A DNA stretch of 32,579 bases from Bacteroidota bacterium (lineage in GTDB: Bacteria > Bacteroidota > Bacteroidia > UBA7662 > JAIXUI01): contig JAIXUI010000035.1 of the NCBI GenBank assembly GCA_027484125.1, positions 1 through 32,579 of the forward strand, written 5' to 3'. Under the pieces are notes generated by a model. It had not been told where the DNA came from, searched no databases, and saw only the letters and a program-made list of their open reading frames with translations. Both the position numbers and the translations under genes were made by a program. This document shows positions 1,690 to 8,841 of the stretch, in pieces. Numbering within the stretch: position 1 is the first letter of the stretch; each line of letters opens with the position of its first letter.

Positions 1690-2375
1690 TTTCCTGTTAA
1701 ATTCCATGCAACCACACAGGCCAGCCACATGACCAGCCCTTGAATAATTCCAAATAGGGTAATTTGTCCGTAGGAGGCTTTCTCGGTTCGGTCAAATAAA
1801 TCCGGTATGGTTAGCATCAATAGCCCTTCAGCAACAAAAATATAAACCGGAACTGGACCTAGCATTTTTGTATTTTCATAATGCCACCAACCGGCATGTA
1901 TGGCGAGGAATTCATATAGTGGAATGATGCAACAACCCAAGACTCCCACGATGATGGACGTAATCAGGAGAGATTTCTTCTTATTGATTAGGAATCCGAT
2001 GTAGCCAATTTGAATAAGAACTACCATCCAACTAAAAGGCATATAAGCTGGGGAGGCGGCCAACATGGGTTCGTCTGGCGGGTAAAAGAGCGTTTTAGTA
2101 TGCACTACCAGCCAATAATCTGCCATGAGCTCTACCAATCCGGCAGTTAGTGCAAAAAGCATGAACCTGAACATCAGGTTGTCTTTTTTCAAAAAGGCCC
2201 AAGCAGCGTAAAGTAAACTAAATCCATATCCCCAAACAGCAGCGCTTTTCCAGCCTTGGAATTTCCAAGCGTCCAGAACAAGGACTCCTACGGCCAAAGC
2301 CATGCTTCCTAAAATGAACCATGTTCTGGATTTTGCTAGTGGATCTGAGGAGCGTGTAGCAGTTGAAGTGTTCAT
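1686..2375 (-). CDS. Polytopic membrane protein of unknown function, operonic with an isoprenoid-type oxidoreductase
   Basis: A 229-residue protein with roughly seven hydrophobic segments and short loops, surely in the inner membrane. Two loops carry polar or aromatic motifs that may form an active site: HTKTLFYPPDEPM and GWWHYENTKMLGPVPVY. The layout, with acidic and aromatic residues at membrane edges, recalls integral-membrane carotenoid enzymes (CruF- or lycopene-cyclase-like), but I do not recognise a family and the likeness is weak. The start is the ATG at 2375, which forms ATGA with the stop of the oxidoreductase gene; a longer form starting at 2399 would lie inside that gene. The stop overlaps the cyclase start in the same way. 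The neighbouring phytoene-desaturase-like enzyme suggests a joint role on a hydrophobic substrate; this is inference. Confidence 0.75.
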   Translation of the reverse strand: MNTSTATRSSDPLAKSRTWFILGSMALAVGVLVLDAWKFQGWKSAAVWGYGFSLLYAAWAFLKKDNLMFRFMLFALTAGLVELMADYWLVVHTKTLFYPPDEPMLAASPAYMPFSWMVVLIQIGYIGFLINKKKSLLITSIIVGVLGCCIIPLYEFLAIHAGWWHYENTKMLGPVPVYIFVAEGLLMLTIPDLFDRTEKASYGQITLFGIIQGLVMWLACVVAWNLTGK

Positions 2376-4219
2376 TTTTTTAATCTTGAAAACAGCCATT
2401 CAAAAACAAAAACGACCAAACAGAAGATCAGCCAAAACAGCATGCCTAGCTTTAACCAAGCTGGAATTTCTGCCGACCAAGCTAACCCTTTAGACCATCG
2501 GTAATGGTCGTACCATTTCAAGGGGCGATAAAGCAAAGGTTCTTTAAGATTCCAAACCTTGCATAATGGTTGGTTGGCCCCGCTTTTCTGAATCAAGGCA
2601 TTTACAGCCCTGCGAGCCGCTTCGTTAGCCCCTTCCATAGTCGCCAAATCGGTATTGGTTTTAACGTAGTCGGCAGCAAAGAATAGGTTAGGAATTTGGC
2701 AATCAGCTGAAGGCCTCAAATCCCATGTGTTGACATTGTTCACCAACAAGGGCTCAACGTTGCATAATCCATTGGTGTTTTGGATAGACAACAACCGTTG
2801 ATCAAAAGCTCGTTTGAATCTGCTATCTGCTATGGCTTGTTGAAGTGGAGCTCCAACTGGTGCATCGGCAAGTTGTTCCGGCCTGATGTCTCTATCCAGG
2901 TAAAAGTCGATGCGCATATCATCGCGAAGAATTTCAACGCCTTCCACATTGAGGCTTGCTTTGAGCTGTGCCCATACTTCTTCGGCTACTTCTTCCCGGC
3001 TGCAATCTTTAGCGGCTTTGGTGGTGGTGAATTGACCTGGAGTGAACCAATCGGAAATATCTACACTCAATAAACCACGAACTTCACCATTGCCTTTGTC
3101 CTTGAGGTCATAGCCACTCCAAAATTGAATTTGGGAGATGCAAGTAACTGCCCATGCGGTGTTACAGCAAATGACATGTCCATGATTGACCGGAACTTCT
3201 ACGTTGAGATAATACTGTATGCCATTCATCCAGCTTACACTTGGAGCTAATTGCTGAATAAAGGCGAGGGTTCTGTCAGCTTTTATCATTTCCGGACTTA
3301 GCAAAGGAGCAGCGCGTTCCACTGGAGTAGCTAGGATAAAATAATCGCCGCTTACCTCTATGGTCTGGCCATTTCCGGATAAATGATCCACGATGGTAGC
3401 ACTTTGAATTTGCTTACCGCTGGCATCCATGGAGATGGAGGTCACTTCATGGCCCAGAAAGTACTTAACACCTTTGCTTTTAAGATAATCCAGCCAAGGC
3501 GTCAACCAACGGTCATTGGTGGGGCCATTCAGAACCCTGTCGGTGTTAACGGTTGGGTCGAGCATGCAGTACAACAACTGGAGGAAAATATCGCCACCTG
3601 TTTTGGTGCTGGCGGTTTCAGCTTTCGCAGCAACCAAAGTGCGGGTCAATCCTTCTACTAAAAGCGAGCGATAAGTAGCGCTAAAGCGGTCTGCTTCTAA
3701 GTATTCCCACCAACCCAAACGTTCATAGTCGTTTTGCCTTCGTGCATTAGAGCTGGTCATTAATTGCCAAACTCGTTTAGCAAAGAATTTTTCTTCTTCG
3801 TGGGTAAGGCCTGAATCTGCGCCTTGAAATAAATCATGCAGCATCAACTCTAAGTCAGATAAATCTCTTGGAAAGGATGCTGTGGTCACTATGGGTTTTA
3901 ACCCATACCTCGCAATCATGATTCGGCTGGTAGGTACTAGATTAGTGTAAACGGATTTGCCATTTTGGAAGGGAATCCGCTTCATGGTATCTGTTACATG
4001 TCGGTAGAAGCCAGGAAAAAAACGAAATCCATGCTCTCCGGGTAATGGATTCGCATAAGGAGGTTGATCTTCCGGCCCTTCGTACCAAATGCTTCGAGCT
4101 TTACCTCCTACGTACCGAACGTTGCGGTCATATACTTCAACTTCAAATCCCCTTTCTATCAACTCATGGGCAGCAGACATTCCCGCTACACCTCCTCCTA
4201 AAATGATAACTTTTGACAT
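2372..4219 (-). CDS. FAD-dependent amine-oxidase-family oxidoreductase (phytoene desaturase / hydroxysqualene dehydroxylase-like), C-terminal membrane anchor
   Basis: First gene of the operon, 615 residues. The N-terminus is a classic dinucleotide-binding fold (VIILGGGVAGMSAAHEL, then EVEVYDRN), and the end of the catalytic domain carries the family's second flavin motif (FFAADYVKTNTDLATMEGAN, then EAARRA). This pattern belongs to the amine-oxidase superfamily, which includes phytoene desaturases, carotene isomerases and the hopanoid enzyme HpnE. The closing 25 residues are a hydrophobic helix with a basic end (WLFSRLKK), so the enzyme is probably tethered to the inner membrane, where isoprenoid substrates reside. 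No phytoene synthase or other carotenoid gene is in the window, so the substrate cannot be named. Automated labels such as hydroxysqualene dehydroxylase would be unproven. Confidence 0.85.
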   Translation of the reverse strand: MSKVIILGGGVAGMSAAHELIERGFEVEVYDRNVRYVGGKARSIWYEGPEDQPPYANPLPGEHGFRFFPGFYRHVTDTMKRIPFQNGKSVYTNLVPTSRIMIARYGLKPIVTTASFPRDLSDLELMLHDLFQGADSGLTHEEEKFFAKRVWQLMTSSNARRQNDYERLGWWEYLEADRFSATYRSLLVEGLTRTLVAAKAETASTKTGGDIFLQLLYCMLDPTVNTDRVLNGPTNDRWLTPWLDYLKSKGVKYFLGHEVTSISMDASGKQIQSATIVDHLSGNGQTIEVSGDYFILATPVERAAPLLSPEMIKADRTLAFIQQLAPSVSWMNGIQYYLNVEVPVNHGHVICCNTAWAVTCISQIQFWSGYDLKDKGNGEVRGLLSVDISDWFTPGQFTTTKAAKDCSREEVAEEVWAQLKASLNVEGVEILRDDMRIDFYLDRDIRPEQLADAPVGAPLQQAIADSRFKRAFDQRLLSIQNTNGLCNVEPLLVNNVNTWDLRPSADCQIPNLFFAADYVKTNTDLATMEGANEAARRAVNALIQKSGANQPLCKVWNLKEPLLYRPLKWYDHYRWSKGLAWSAEIPAWLKLGMLFWLIFCLVVFVFEWLFSRLKK

Positions 4220-4767: not shown

Positions 4768-5430
4768 ATGAAGCGGTTTCTGCTACTGATTCTTTTTTGG
4801 TCGAATGTGACTATGGCCCAGCAATACTTGCGCTGGCAACCAACATGGCATGGGAAGCCAATTGCAGTGACAGAAGAACGTGGTGTCCTCGATGAATTTC
4901 AGCTTAAACAATTCAAGTGGTACATGAGTGGCCTAACCTTCTGGAAGAAAGGACAACAGTTATGGGTGGATACTGCAACTGTTCGACTTTGGGAAGCAGG
5001 CTTTCCAAAGCGCTCGTTTTTAGTATTGCCATCATTCAAGCAAATGCCGGATTCGCTTTCGTTTTTCTTAGGAATGGATAGCCTTACTCACCTGGAGGTG
5101 AAGTTGTCAGGTGATACGGATCCAACTTTAGGCATGTATTGGACCTGGCAGAATGGTTATATCCATTTGAAAATGGAAGCGTTGAAACGAACAGAAGATC
5201 AGCAAGTTAGAACGATTAGCCTCCATTTGGGTGGTTATCGTCATAGCCCTTGCAAATATTCCATAGGTCTTCCCATTTCGAGAAGTTCAAAAAAGGAGAT
5301 TCTTTTAGAAACTGAGTTGAGCCATTGGATAGATTCCTCTCAACCGTTCCCAGACCATTGGATGCAGCCTGGGCAACAGTCTGTTTTATATTCTAGAATT
5401 TGGGCACACTACTTTACGGTCAAACCATGA
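4768..5430 (+). CDS. mbnP: MbnP-like secreted copper-binding protein
   Basis: A 220-residue protein with a signal peptide (MKRFLLLILFWSNVTMAQ). The body matches the MbnP family: an early FKWYMSGLTFW segment, a central FFLGMDSL, then SGDTDPTLGMYWTWQNGYI (Trp125 and Trp127) and SLHLGGY (His153). MbnP proteins are periplasmic copper-binding proteins; a conserved Trp is converted to kynurenine by a di-haem MbnH enzyme, which creates the metal site. The gene overlaps the mbnH-like gene by ATGA, which is the expected partnership and the strongest support for the call. Which Trp would be oxidised cannot be read from this sequence alone. There is no methanobactin operon here, so a copper role is by family only. 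Confidence 0.85.
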   Translation: MKRFLLLILFWSNVTMAQQYLRWQPTWHGKPIAVTEERGVLDEFQLKQFKWYMSGLTFWKKGQQLWVDTATVRLWEAGFPKRSFLVLPSFKQMPDSLSFFLGMDSLTHLEVKLSGDTDPTLGMYWTWQNGYIHLKMEALKRTEDQQVRTISLHLGGYRHSPCKYSIGLPISRSSKKEILLETELSHWIDSSQPFPDHWMQPGQQSVLYSRIWAHYFTVKP

Positions 5431-6404
5431 ATAAGTCTGTAGCAGTGGGGTTTATCCTGGGTGTGTTGGTGTTAGCAGCTTGGAGACTGCCGACTGAGCC
5501 AAATTGGCCAGCACCTATTCAGCAATTAAAACCTTCGCCAAAAGATACTTTAAGGTTTGAGCTAGGAAGAAGGTTGTTTTATGACCCTTTACTTTCTGCG
5601 GATACTTCAGTTTCCTGTGGCAGTTGTCATCTTTCTTACACAGCCTTCACCCATGTGGATCATGCACTTAGTCATGGAATCAAAGACCGGGTTGGCAAAC
5701 GCAATGCACAGCCCTTGTTCAATCTGGCTTGGTATGATCAATTTATGTGGGATGGGGCTATTACCCGTTTAGACCGTCAGCCACTAGCTCCACTTTTACA
5801 TCCTGATGAAATGGGCGATTCACTACCCAATATCCTGAGTAAGCTCAATGCAACTCCATTCTACCGCAGAGCATTTAAAGAAGCATTTAATGCGGAAAAA
5901 ATTCAAACAGAGGAGTTGCTTCAGGCACTTCAGCATTTTGTCCTTCAGTTGGTTTCCAAGGATAGCAAATACGACCGGATGATGGCAGGAAAAGCCACTT
6001 TCGATGAACAAGAAAAGCGCGGTTGGGCTTTGTTTGAAAGCCATTGTAGTTCATGTCACCCTTCGCCCTTATTTACTTCAGGAAAGTTTGAAACCAATGG
6101 ACTTCAACCTGATCCAAAACTTGGGGATGTAGGCCGGGCCGGAATTACTTATTTAGCCTCAGACTCATTCAAGTTCAGGGTTCCTAGTCTTCGAAATTTG
6201 GTTTGGAGTTATCCCTACATGCATGATGGAAGAATGAAGACCCTTAGGCAGGTTTTGAATCATTACAGCCAAATTTTACCGCAAACTCAGTCCTCGCATC
6301 CCTTGAAAGAAGACCGAAATCAGACGGATTTATTGGCCTTCTTGCGAACCCTTTCCGATACAGCATTCGTGCTCAACCCTCGTTTTGCTCCGCCTCGTTT
6401 TTGA
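5427..6404 (+). CDS. mbnH: MbnH-like di-haem cytochrome c peroxidase (MauG family)
   Basis: A 325-residue exported enzyme with an N-terminal hydrophobic segment (VGFILGVLVLAAW). Two c-type haem sites are present: C64-GS-CH68 and C207-SS-CH211. Other family marks are FELGRRLFYDPLLS, LFNLAWYDQFMWDGA, the FRVPSLRNL strand and the YMHDGRMKTL motif near the distal haem. MauG/MbnH enzymes use a high-valent bis-haem state to oxidise a protein residue; here the substrate is most likely the Trp of the MbnP-like protein encoded immediately upstream. I chose the ATG at 5427, which shares bases with the mbnP stop (ATGA), rather than a TTG at 5400. A plain peroxidase that detoxifies hydrogen peroxide is the main alternative. 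Confidence 0.9.
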   Translation: MNKSVAVGFILGVLVLAAWRLPTEPNWPAPIQQLKPSPKDTLRFELGRRLFYDPLLSADTSVSCGSCHLSYTAFTHVDHALSHGIKDRVGKRNAQPLFNLAWYDQFMWDGAITRLDRQPLAPLLHPDEMGDSLPNILSKLNATPFYRRAFKEAFNAEKIQTEELLQALQHFVLQLVSKDSKYDRMMAGKATFDEQEKRGWALFESHCSSCHPSPLFTSGKFETNGLQPDPKLGDVGRAGITYLASDSFKFRVPSLRNLVWSYPYMHDGRMKTLRQVLNHYSQILPQTQSSHPLKEDRNQTDLLAFLRTLSDTAFVLNPRFAPPRF

Positions 6405-6433
6405 TAAACTGTTTTTAAATAATTTTTTTCACC

Positions 6434-7798
6434 ATGAAAAACCGTTCCATCTCATTGCTCACTTTAGGGCTTTTAATGGCCCTCAGTGGATATTGTCAGG
6501 TTAGTAATCCTGCCATCACCTCATGGTTACAGAATACCACAGGAGTTACTGGTCGCTATTACGTACAGGGCAATTCAACGCCTATTCAGGATGTTGTTCA
6601 GGCCAATGTACAATCGGTAAGATATTCTACCAACTGGGTTTATATTGGTGCCACTGGCATTCCCGCCTACGTCACCGGGCCATTTCTTGATGGTAATCCA
6701 TCCAGAGCGACCAATAGAAATGCAATTTTTAAGTTTCCACTAAACCCTGTTGCTAATACGGGAACGCCAACAGCTACCAGTATGGGAAACATAGGGGTGT
6801 TTGTCAATGGTGTTGCCTTGTTTGATTCGCGTGACGGGGTATCTTGGAGATCATCTACCAACTCGCTTGCGGGTGGTCCATTAGGTGGACAAGGAGACAA
6901 TGTGTGGAACCGAGATGCCATTGTGGCAGAGCGAGCAGGATTTGATTGCTCCAAAGGACATCCAGCTATGGGAAATTATCATCATCACCAGAATCCAAGT
7001 GCGTTTAAATTGGATTTACAGGTGCTTTCAACCATTTGCAACCTCTATAATGCGGATGGTTTGTACGCGATAGACAGCACCCAACATTCGCCACTGATTG
7101 GTTTTGCCTACGATGGATTTCCAATTTATGGTGCATACGGATACAGAAATACCAATGGTACAGGCGGGGTTGTGAGGATTAAATCCAGCTACTTCAAAAG
7201 AAACATCACAACACGCACTACCAATCCGGCTGGTGCTGTGGTTACTGCGGGTCCTCCGGTGAATAGCACTTATCCGTTGGGTTATTTTAAGGAAGACTAT
7301 GTGTATGTACCCACTTCAGCGGCTACTCCCGATTATCTGGACGACCATAATGGGCGCTTTTGTGTGACCCCGGAGTATCCTAATGGAACCTATGCCTATT
7401 TCGCCACAGTTGATAGCAATTGGAATTCTGCTTATCCGTATGTGGTAGGTCCTACGTTTTACGGAACTAGGGTAGCCTCCACCGTAACAAGTATTACTGA
7501 AACTACCACTACTTATGTTCCAATAACTACATCAGTAACCGGGTTAGCAATGCCGGAGGTTTCTGTTTATCCTAATCCCTCAGCAGAGTTCTTTGCAGTA
7601 CAATTTAAGGGATTGAACAAGGAGGAAATTCAGTTAGAGCTTCTTGACTCCCAGGGAAGAGTTGTGCAAAAGTCTATTTTGTTTCCTGGGATGACCTTGG
7701 TGTATTTCGATACTTCTATTCTTTACAGCGATTTATATCTTTTGAGAATGAGTGGAAAATTTGGCTCTTCTTTTAAGAAAATAATGGTCGCTCGCTAG
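6434..7798 (+). CDS. T9SS-exported YHYH-domain protein
   Basis: A 454-residue protein. Signal peptide MKNRSISLLTLGLLMALSGYCQ; a YHYH-type domain spanning roughly residues 80-340; and a C-terminal T9SS sorting domain starting at SVYPNPSAEFF and ending FKKIMVAR. The domain is shown by FDCSKGHPAMGNYHHHQNPS (residues 182-185 read YHHH in place of the name-giving YHYH), followed by LIGFAYDGFPIYGAYGY and later RFCVTPEYPNGTYAYF. YHYH proteins have no settled biochemical role; the His and Cys content suggests metal binding. The gene is 29 bases after mbnH and before a strong terminator, so it is the third member of the operon and may act on, or receive copper from, the MbnP/MbnH pair. Because of its sorting domain it should end outside the cell, unlike its periplasmic partners. 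Confidence 0.87.
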   Translation: MKNRSISLLTLGLLMALSGYCQVSNPAITSWLQNTTGVTGRYYVQGNSTPIQDVVQANVQSVRYSTNWVYIGATGIPAYVTGPFLDGNPSRATNRNAIFKFPLNPVANTGTPTATSMGNIGVFVNGVALFDSRDGVSWRSSTNSLAGGPLGGQGDNVWNRDAIVAERAGFDCSKGHPAMGNYHHHQNPSAFKLDLQVLSTICNLYNADGLYAIDSTQHSPLIGFAYDGFPIYGAYGYRNTNGTGGVVRIKSSYFKRNITTRTTNPAGAVVTAGPPVNSTYPLGYFKEDYVYVPTSAATPDYLDDHNGRFCVTPEYPNGTYAYFATVDSNWNSAYPYVVGPTFYGTRVASTVTSITETTTTYVPITTSVTGLAMPEVSVYPNPSAEFFAVQFKGLNKEEIQLELLDSQGRVVQKSILFPGMTLVYFDTSILYSDLYLLRMSGKFGSSFKKIMVAR

Positions 7799-7820
7799 TA
7801 AAAGGACGATTCAACTTTTT

Positions 7821-7868
7821 AAAGGGCAGTATAGGAGTGCTAATACTCAATACTGCCCTTTTTTATTG
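7821..7868 (+). terminator. Rho-independent terminator closing the mbnP-mbnH-YHYH operon
   Basis: A perfect 12-bp stem (7821-7832 AAAGGGCAGTAT with 7850-7861) encloses a smaller GAGT/ACTC stem (7835-7838 with 7845-7848). A long T-rich run follows immediately (TTTTATTGG then eight T). It starts 22 bases after the YHYH stop and marks the end of the three-gene operon. Confidence 0.9.
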
Positions 7869-7995: not shown

Positions 7996-8841
7996 ATGAT
8001 CATGAAATTTTTTTACGCTTTGTTAATGAGTATTTCCGCTTTGGGGGCGAATGCGCAGCAGACTTTCATTTATAACCAGAATTTCGAGAACTACTCCTCG
8101 TTTTCAGCACCTAATGATTGGACCAACACCGTACCTGGAATGGGGGTTTACCCAGGGCGCGGGGTAAATGCTTCTAAAGGCCTCGACCGAAATTACAATG
8201 CCAATTCACGCAGAGACTCGATCACATCTCCTGTTATGGGTGTTGTTGCTCCTAATTCAAAGTTGAGTTTCAAATACCGTATTGTAGATTATATCGGCAA
8301 TATCGGAGTGAAACATGTGGTGGATCCTGGTGATGAGATTGTGGTGTATGTGCTAGATAGTATTGCTGCAACAGAGGTTTACCGCATCAATACCAATAAC
8401 CATGTGGATACCTCTGCCTTCGCAGAAGTTATAGTGGATCTTCAACCTTTTGTGGGTAGATCGGTTCGGGTGCGATTTAGTGTTACAAGAGGTACTTCCT
8501 CATTGTTCGATTTCAATGCTAACTTCGATGAGGTAGCCATGTATTTCAATCCCATAACCACCAGAGTTAAGGAGTTAGAAAGCACTTATGAATTATCATT
8601 GAGTCCTAATCCGGCAGATGGTCAAGCTGTGCTCCGATTTACCCTTCCTTATGGAGCCAAGCTGGTTGCTTCGGTGTTAGATGTGCAAGGTCGTTTGATT
8701 CAGGAATTGCCCTCCTCATTTTTCCCGGCTGGGCTTCAGCAGCTAGAACTTAACACATCCGCATGGAAACCGGGTATTTACTTCTGCCAATTAGCCAGCG
8801 ATTGGGGACAAAAAACGGTGAAGTTGGTGGTGAAACATTAA
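7996..8841 (+). CDS. T9SS-exported protein with a jelly-roll-like (choice-of-anchor J type) domain
   Basis: A 281-residue secreted protein. A signal peptide (MKFFYALLMSISALGANAQ) is followed by a beta-rich domain beginning TFIYNQNFENYSSFSAPNDW and containing SKLSFKYRIVDY and FNANFDEVAMYF. This follows the choice-of-anchor J / MAM-like lectin-fold pattern seen in many Bacteroidota surface proteins. A T9SS sorting domain (LSLSPNPADGQ to VKLVVKH) ends it. Such proteins often bind sugars or other cells, but no ligand can be named. Two in-frame ATGs (7996 and 8002) are possible; the second gives the cleaner signal peptide. The gene lies between its own promoter and terminator. It is next to the YHYH operon but transcribed separately. 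Confidence 0.82.
   Translation: MIMKFFYALLMSISALGANAQQTFIYNQNFENYSSFSAPNDWTNTVPGMGVYPGRGVNASKGLDRNYNANSRRDSITSPVMGVVAPNSKLSFKYRIVDYIGNIGVKHVVDPGDEIVVYVLDSIAATEVYRINTNNHVDTSAFAEVIVDLQPFVGRSVRVRFSVTRGTSSLFDFNANFDEVAMYFNPITTRVKELESTYELSLSPNPADGQAVLRFTLPYGAKLVASVLDVQGRLIQELPSSFFPAGLQQLELNTSAWKPGIYFCQLASDWGQKTVKLVVKH

Follow-up and report, generated by a model that had tools for sequence, protein, structure and literature searches.

A conserved MbnP-MbnH-YHYH operon of Bacteroidota as a candidate methanobactin-independent metal module

The window, by which we mean the whole stretch of 32,579 nucleotides analysed here, is contig 135 of a Bacteroidota genome of 3.33 Mb that is 99.7% complete. Three genes and a terminator are at the center of this study:

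4768..5430, + strand: predicted MbnP-like copper-site protein (220 aa; PF20243)
5427..6404, + strand: MbnH/MauG-like di-haem enzyme (325 aa; PF03150)
6434..7798, + strand: YHYH protein with T9SS tail (454 aa; PF14240, PF18962/TIGR04183)
7821..7861, + strand: intrinsic terminator at the operon end (RNA fold of -23 kcal/mol, z = -6.2, then a U run)

The genes for MbnP and MbnH overlap in an ATGA at 5427-5430 (gap of -4), and the YHYH gene follows MbnH after 29 bases. Both gaps were recomputed and have the values given in the original prediction, which had proposed a single operon of MbnP-like, overlapping MbnH-like and YHYH genes with one terminator at 7821. Coordinates and Pfam matches agree with this proposal, and RNA folding of 7815-7868 gave a hairpin of -23 kcal/mol (z = -6.2) with a U run directly after it. 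A simple terminator scan did not list the 7821..7861 hairpin, presumably owing to its long apical part. The three genes are one operon, with gene identities and layout established. A T9SS protein encoded at 7996-8841 was considered as fourth member of the operon, but was left out of the module because it lies behind the terminator and because no recurrent family is found at that place in relatives. The genes 5' of MbnP (2372-4219 and 1686-2399), coding for an amine-oxidase-type flavoprotein and a DUF6989 protein, are on the opposite strand and unrelated.

By Pfam, the protein encoded at 4768-5430 is a member of the MbnP family, with 73.4 bits for PF20243 at a cut-off of 27. It starts with a Sec-type signal peptide, judged by eye (MKRFLLLILFWSNVTMAQ). 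Trp125 and Trp127, which had been singled out as the residues to be modified, are indeed the WxW motif of the protein (W125-T-W127); these two and the other marked residues, M123 and H153, are the same in 75/75 aligned MbnPs, as are D104 and K135. An AF2 model of the protein (pLDDT 90) was used for a fold search against the PDB and, at E < 0.001, only the six chains of 7L6G, the MbnP of Methylosinus trichosporium, were retrieved (prob 1.00, TM ~0.57 by query). Searched by sequence, the PDB gave no match to MbnP or to its profile, but a Deinococcus MbnP serves as sequence bridge, its WxW region lining up with GMAWNWQ of 7L6G. Chains of MopE or CorA were found neither by sequence nor among the listed fold matches of the model; an earlier study noted no marked sequence similarity of MbnP to MopE/CorA (PMC3621798).

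The MbnH-like enzyme (168 bits for PF03150) has an N-terminal signal or anchor and two CxxCH haem motifs, at 64-68 and 207-211, that are invariant in 38 aligned proteins. Its best match in the PDB is 6e1c, a "Di-heme enzyme" (E 1.3e-38). Tyr280 aligns with a Tyr in 6e1c and with Met in the peroxidases 1iqc and 3o5c. Trp108 sits in a "WDG" stretch. The best NCBIfam match is TIGR04039, "MbnH family", with 187 bits as compared to 157 bits for the MauG model; this is under the cut-off of 363, and the TIGR04052 equivalog scores MbnP with 29 bits at a cut-off of 140. Five relatives of MbnP and all five relatives of MbnH that were tested stay below as well. Since all ten of these Bacteroidota and Deinococcus proteins miss the NCBIfam equivalog cut-offs, the failed scores mark a broad branch and not this locus. 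The window MbnP and MbnH are divergent. The pair is reportedly named "metallo-mystery pair" (TIGR04052/TIGR04039).

The third gene product matches PF14240 with 191 bits (cut-off 25). It has a signal peptide and, at residues 378-452, a C-terminal T9SS type A sorting domain (35 bits for PF18962; TIGR04183 also matches), and would therefore cross the periplasm and end up outside the cell. Invariant in 66 aligned proteins are His176, the YHxH motif at 182-185 (Y182, H183, H185) and His218, and the invariant histidines look like a metal site. The AF2 model (pLDDT 90.7) gave no significant match in a fold search of the PDB, and its fold matches are viral YHYH proteins only. YHYH proteins of bacteria, diatoms, phages and giant viruses have, to our knowledge, no known function. 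With the phage, giant virus and other bacterial members of PF14240 the window protein shares the domain, the invariant His residues and, for the viral ones, the predicted fold; it differs from them by its T9SS export route and its tie to MbnP-MbnH. For phage YHYH domains, a role as Zn-dependent hydrolases with a zinc site of three His and one Asp was predicted (PMC7824862), and His176, His183, His185 and His218 fit this published predicted site. This literature prediction is one of a zinc hydrolase, not of a copper protein, and counts against a copper reading of the operon.

That YHYH belongs to the pair had been put forward as an inference to be checked by a co-occurrence search, and the outcome of this search was strongly positive. 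When the window YHYH was used to scan 84,980 species genomes, 519 relatives were retrieved; the best 80 were examined, the loci being picked by YHYH alone, and 64 of these have at least 2.2 kb of upstream DNA. MbnP and MbnH are present beside the window-like YHYH in 54 of these 64 loci, nearly always in the order MbnP-MbnH-YHYH and on one strand. The triad operon is conserved in many freshwater Bacteroidota, and the same triad is present in three further genomes of the order to which the window belongs. For counting, window-like YHYH were defined by a score cut of 250 bits and a core-only model; a YHYH profile with the T9SS tail was dropped, since it drew in unrelated T9SS proteins. In an even sample of 395 Bacteroidota, a full-length YHYH gene lies at most 5 kb from MbnP in 8 genomes as compared to ~0.09 pairs expected by chance (Poisson tail 1e-13, a value that ignores kinship, with the window's own genome as one of the eight). 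In a ninth genome the contig ends inside MbnH next to YHYH. Counting only genomes with full-length YHYH, MbnP is present in 10/11 that have the window-like type but in 3/13 that have other types (Fisher p = 0.0013); unlike the window-like type, the other Bacteroidota YHYH types are mostly without a link to MbnP-MbnH. Genomes with a window-like YHYH but no MbnP in the stretch examined were searched as a whole, and MbnP was found elsewhere in 16/16, against a background of 97/395 Bacteroidota genomes; the figure of 16/16 is inflated by kinship and some of the 16 cases are merely truncated contigs. In at least 7 of the 16 the MbnP is of the YHYH-linked type. In one case (L166/G437), MbnP is apparently located ~11 kb upstream of YHYH on the same contig, the contigs being matched by their equal length. 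The association of YHYH with MbnP-MbnH is strong and specific.

The genome from which the window comes has four MbnPs and four CCP_MauG genes, which make up three pairs including the one described here; the remaining MbnP is on a contig without a CCP_MauG match. The single YHYH of this genome adjoins the MbnP-MbnH pair of the window. A quick tree was built from 95 MbnH proteins, 76 of them YHYH-linked. One set of 77 (SH-aLRT 99) holds 74 of the linked enzymes and only three unlinked ones, the linked enzymes being a near-clade. The two linked enzymes outside the set are extra paralogues in one tandem cluster. The window MbnH is inside the set, but its exact place is unsure because of its long branch (1.25). 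One unlinked member (G192) has genes for a sigma factor and a Metal_resist protein in front, and its YHYH is encoded elsewhere in the genome.

When neighbouring genes were clustered, 26/51 loci proved to have genes for an ECF sigma factor and a Metal_resist protein immediately before MbnP, often separated by a gene for a small one-helix protein. The Metal_resist-like protein reaches 25.8 bits for PF13801, just under the cut-off of 29.2. Metal-sensing sigma modules, CnrYXH for instance, have this arrangement of an ECF sigma factor, a small membrane protein and a Metal_resist protein. In control MbnP loci without YHYH, sigma factor and Metal_resist gene were seen in 1/12, and this one is G192, inside the YHYH clade. 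A multicopper oxidase (PF07732/PF07731) with a T9SS tail is encoded downstream or in between in 17 YHYH-linked loci; 15 linked loci have a redoxin/AhpC-TSA protein, and in 15 a second YHYH is encoded that is divergent and has a membrane segment at its N-terminus. Secreted sulfatases or calcineurin-like phosphoesterases are found in some. None of these neighbours, whether sigma factor, Metal_resist gene, multicopper oxidase or one of the other families, accompanies the window operon, and Cu-oxidase_3 has zero matches in the whole genome; the window MbnP therefore cannot serve such an oxidase, and the three genes are the core of the system.

MbnP-MbnH pairs are conserved far beyond methanobactin producers (PMC3621798), and the proposal of a methanobactin-independent pair, although supported here, is thus already established. 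None of the genes mbnA, mbnB or mbnC was recognised among the window ORFs or the linked families, mbnA being too short for such lists. By the title of a study cited in PMC9426467, the MbnP family binds copper in a kynurenine-dependent manner, and MbnPH-like genes were noted in other operons together with copper genes and AhpC_TSA (PMC9426467). The closest known counterpart is the MbnP-MbnH of Methylosinus trichosporium OB3b (7L6G; MbnH-type 6E1C), with which the window pair shares the adjacent genes, the WxW motif, the MbnP fold and the Tyr in place of Met; in contrast to that pair, the window proteins score under the equivalog cut-offs and are followed by a gene for a T9SS YHYH protein. MopE-SACCP of Methylococcus capsulatus and CorA-CorB of Methylomicrobium album are similar in that a di-haem peroxidase-like enzyme is encoded next to a copper protein that is secreted or surface-bound and has, close to its copper, a kynurenine derived from Trp; both systems are copper-repressed. 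CorA has a His/kynurenine copper site and is encoded beside the di-haem CorB (PMC3912023), and the sites of MopE and CorA are analogous to the kynurenine-copper chemistry of MbnP (PMC3912023, PMC3423442). In contrast to these systems, MbnP looks periplasmic here, and the surface protein would be YHYH. MauG, the enzyme of tryptophan tryptophylquinone biogenesis, is also a di-haem protein with a Tyr ligand that oxidises a Trp of its partner, but no methylamine dehydrogenase partner is seen at the window, and the MbnH model scores higher than the MauG model. A methanobactin-independent MbnP-MbnH next to copper genes is found on a plasmid of D. radiodurans (NZ_OV024759.1), where MbnP-CCP adjoins CopC and CopD; the annotated neighbours there, unlike those in the window, do not include YHYH. 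A search of 5.39 million papers, to which the main ones on MbnH and MbnP did not belong, turned up no report that links YHYH with MbnP/MbnH. Within this literature the YHYH partner and the secreted metalloprotein cassette seem to be undescribed.

The reading to which we give slightly better than even chances is that the operon encodes a metal module independent of methanobactin, with copper as the most likely metal, in which a kynurenine site on MbnP serves, or exchanges metal with, T9SS surface metalloproteins. The kynurenine and copper chemistry is carried over to the window pair from the known systems because the Tyr ligand, the WxW motif and the His are conserved. MbnH, as a Tyr-ligated di-haem enzyme, would oxidise W125 or W127 of MbnP to kynurenine in the periplasm, and the kynurenine would create a high-affinity copper site together with H153 and perhaps M123 or D104 nearby. 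The copper of MbnP would then be given to, or exchanged with, metalloproteins that cross the periplasm on their way to T9SS surface placement, which would be YHYH and, in many relatives, the T9SS multicopper oxidase. At the head of the operon, about half of the relatives have the ECF sigma factor, often the small membrane protein, and a periplasmic protein of the Metal_resist/CpxP-like kind. What speaks for copper is association: the chemistry of MbnP, the multicopper oxidases, the Metal_resist/ECF genes and CopC/CopD in Deinococcus. We infer the copper flow and the role of YHYH from this context. Against this reading count the lack of a sigma factor, a Metal_resist gene and a multicopper oxidase at the window operon, the divergence of its MbnP and MbnH with their low NCBIfam scores, and the zinc-hydrolase prediction for YHYH. 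It is tempting to speculate further that the kynurenine-copper protein and its maturase are a station dedicated to loading copper onto proteins bound for type 9 secretion, that MbnP metallates YHYH, and the multicopper oxidase where present, in the periplasm before export and that YHYH is a new class of secreted copper enzymes with a fold absent from the PDB, but this stronger version is rather unlikely. If the module works as proposed, it would show a possible way for copper to reach the secreted enzymes of Bacteroidota. The recurrent and specific link of YHYH to MbnP-MbnH, together with the neighbouring multicopper oxidases and sigma modules of the metal-sensing type, is the first concrete functional context found for YHYH and would tie this uncharacterised family to copper handling. 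The role of MbnP-MbnH outside methanotrophs and the function of YHYH could both be tested in one small operon.

The sigma factor and Metal_resist genes directly upstream in 26/51 loci, and the redoxin/AhpC-TSA in 15, would also be explained by an envelope metal-stress regulon, in which a metal-sensing sigma factor co-regulates MbnP, MbnH and YHYH for surface metal tolerance or detoxification with no direct cooperation of YHYH and MbnP. However, about half of the loci, including the window, are without the sigma module and yet have the exact order MbnP-MbnH-YHYH with small gaps, and MbnP is present in 16/16 tested genomes with a window-like YHYH even when unlinked. We therefore regard a mere regulon as not very likely. 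The module may also handle another metal (zinc, iron, manganese), or YHYH may be a secreted zinc-dependent hydrolase that merely shares the operon. The prediction for the phage YHYH domains (PMC7824862) points in this direction, as do the secreted sulfatases and calcineurin-like phosphoesterases in linked loci. But MopE, CorA and the MbnP family, as far as studied, are copper binders, and the linked multicopper oxidases require copper, which makes a metal other than copper, or a bystander hydrolase, unlikely.

Far less probable than a copper module is that MbnH has two substrates and also modifies a Trp or Tyr of YHYH in the periplasm, giving YHYH a derived cofactor. YHYH adjoins MbnH and has conserved Trp, and MbnH-linked YHYH commonly have W138 and W330, where six deep unlinked ones have Tyr and Gly/Ala. 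However, three clearly MbnH-linked YHYH (L074, L076, L077) have neither of the two, aligned YHYH without MbnPH seen nearby have W138 in all cases and W330 in most, and W31 and W158 are invariant even in unlinked types. The Trp pattern, on which this comparison is based (Tyr positions were examined in less depth), tracks lineage and not linkage, and YHYH as second Trp substrate of MbnH is thus unsupported. It is likewise very doubtful that MbnH is an ordinary di-haem cytochrome c peroxidase that removes hydrogen peroxide with MbnP as accessory protein: PF03150 spans peroxidases as well as MauG-like enzymes and the PDB matches after 6e1c are cytochrome c peroxidases, but Tyr280 replaces the Met ligand in 37/38 aligned proteins, the gene is coupled to MbnP by overlap, and the genome has, on contig C116, a separate canonical-looking enzyme with Met at the stretch corresponding to Tyr280.

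The genome from which the window comes has a second pair of genes for MbnP, the predicted copper-site protein, and MbnH, its MauG-like di-haem partner, and the pair also recurs in other arrangements at the compared loci (L-numbers; coordinates are those within each locus):

L010 283-2087 (contig 77): second MbnP-MbnH pair of the window's genome
L075 6411-9464: one MbnP, then two tandem MbnH paralogues
L058 1-2774: one MbnP, then two tandem MbnH paralogues
L201 2242-5128: one MbnP, then two tandem MbnH paralogues
L211 5875-9388 (plasmid NZ_OV024759.1 of Deinococcus radiodurans): five genes in the same direction, for MbnP, a cytochrome c peroxidase, a hypothetical protein, CopC and CopD in this order

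At the position of the Tyr ligand, the L010 MbnH has Met (RQVLDFMAS), whereas the 37 other aligned MbnHs all have Tyr; despite this exchange, the WxW motif is retained in its MbnP. Judged from these residues, the enzyme may be peroxidase-like, or an altered maturase paired with MbnP. In the MbnH tree, the extra paralogues from L075 and L058 lie on deep branches of their own. In L126, a large cluster with two multicopper oxidases, MbnH is split over two ORFs (2867-3906), likely by a frameshift or an assembly error. The Deinococcus cluster is a methanobactin-independent MbnP-MbnH pair accompanied by copper genes.

The YHYH protein of the window (6434-7798) gave a confident AlphaFold2 model (pLDDT 90.7). 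Since a PDB fold search with this model returned no significant match and its only fold matches were viral YHYH proteins, the fold appears to be unsolved. Beyond the operon terminator, a secreted protein of 281 aa with a T9SS tail is encoded at 7996-8841; in relatives, no recurrent family was seen at the corresponding position.

A divergent second type, YHYH2 (L139, L152, L159, L133), has about 540 aa and an N-terminal membrane segment. Its genes neighbour T9SS calcineurin-like phosphoesterases at these loci, and in some loci YHYH2 is accompanied by its own pair of ECF sigma factor and Metal_resist protein. A Bacteroidota-type MbnP-MbnH-YHYH triad was also seen on an 8.2 kb contig labelled Phycisphaerales (L094), which is probably mis-binned rather than a case of transfer.
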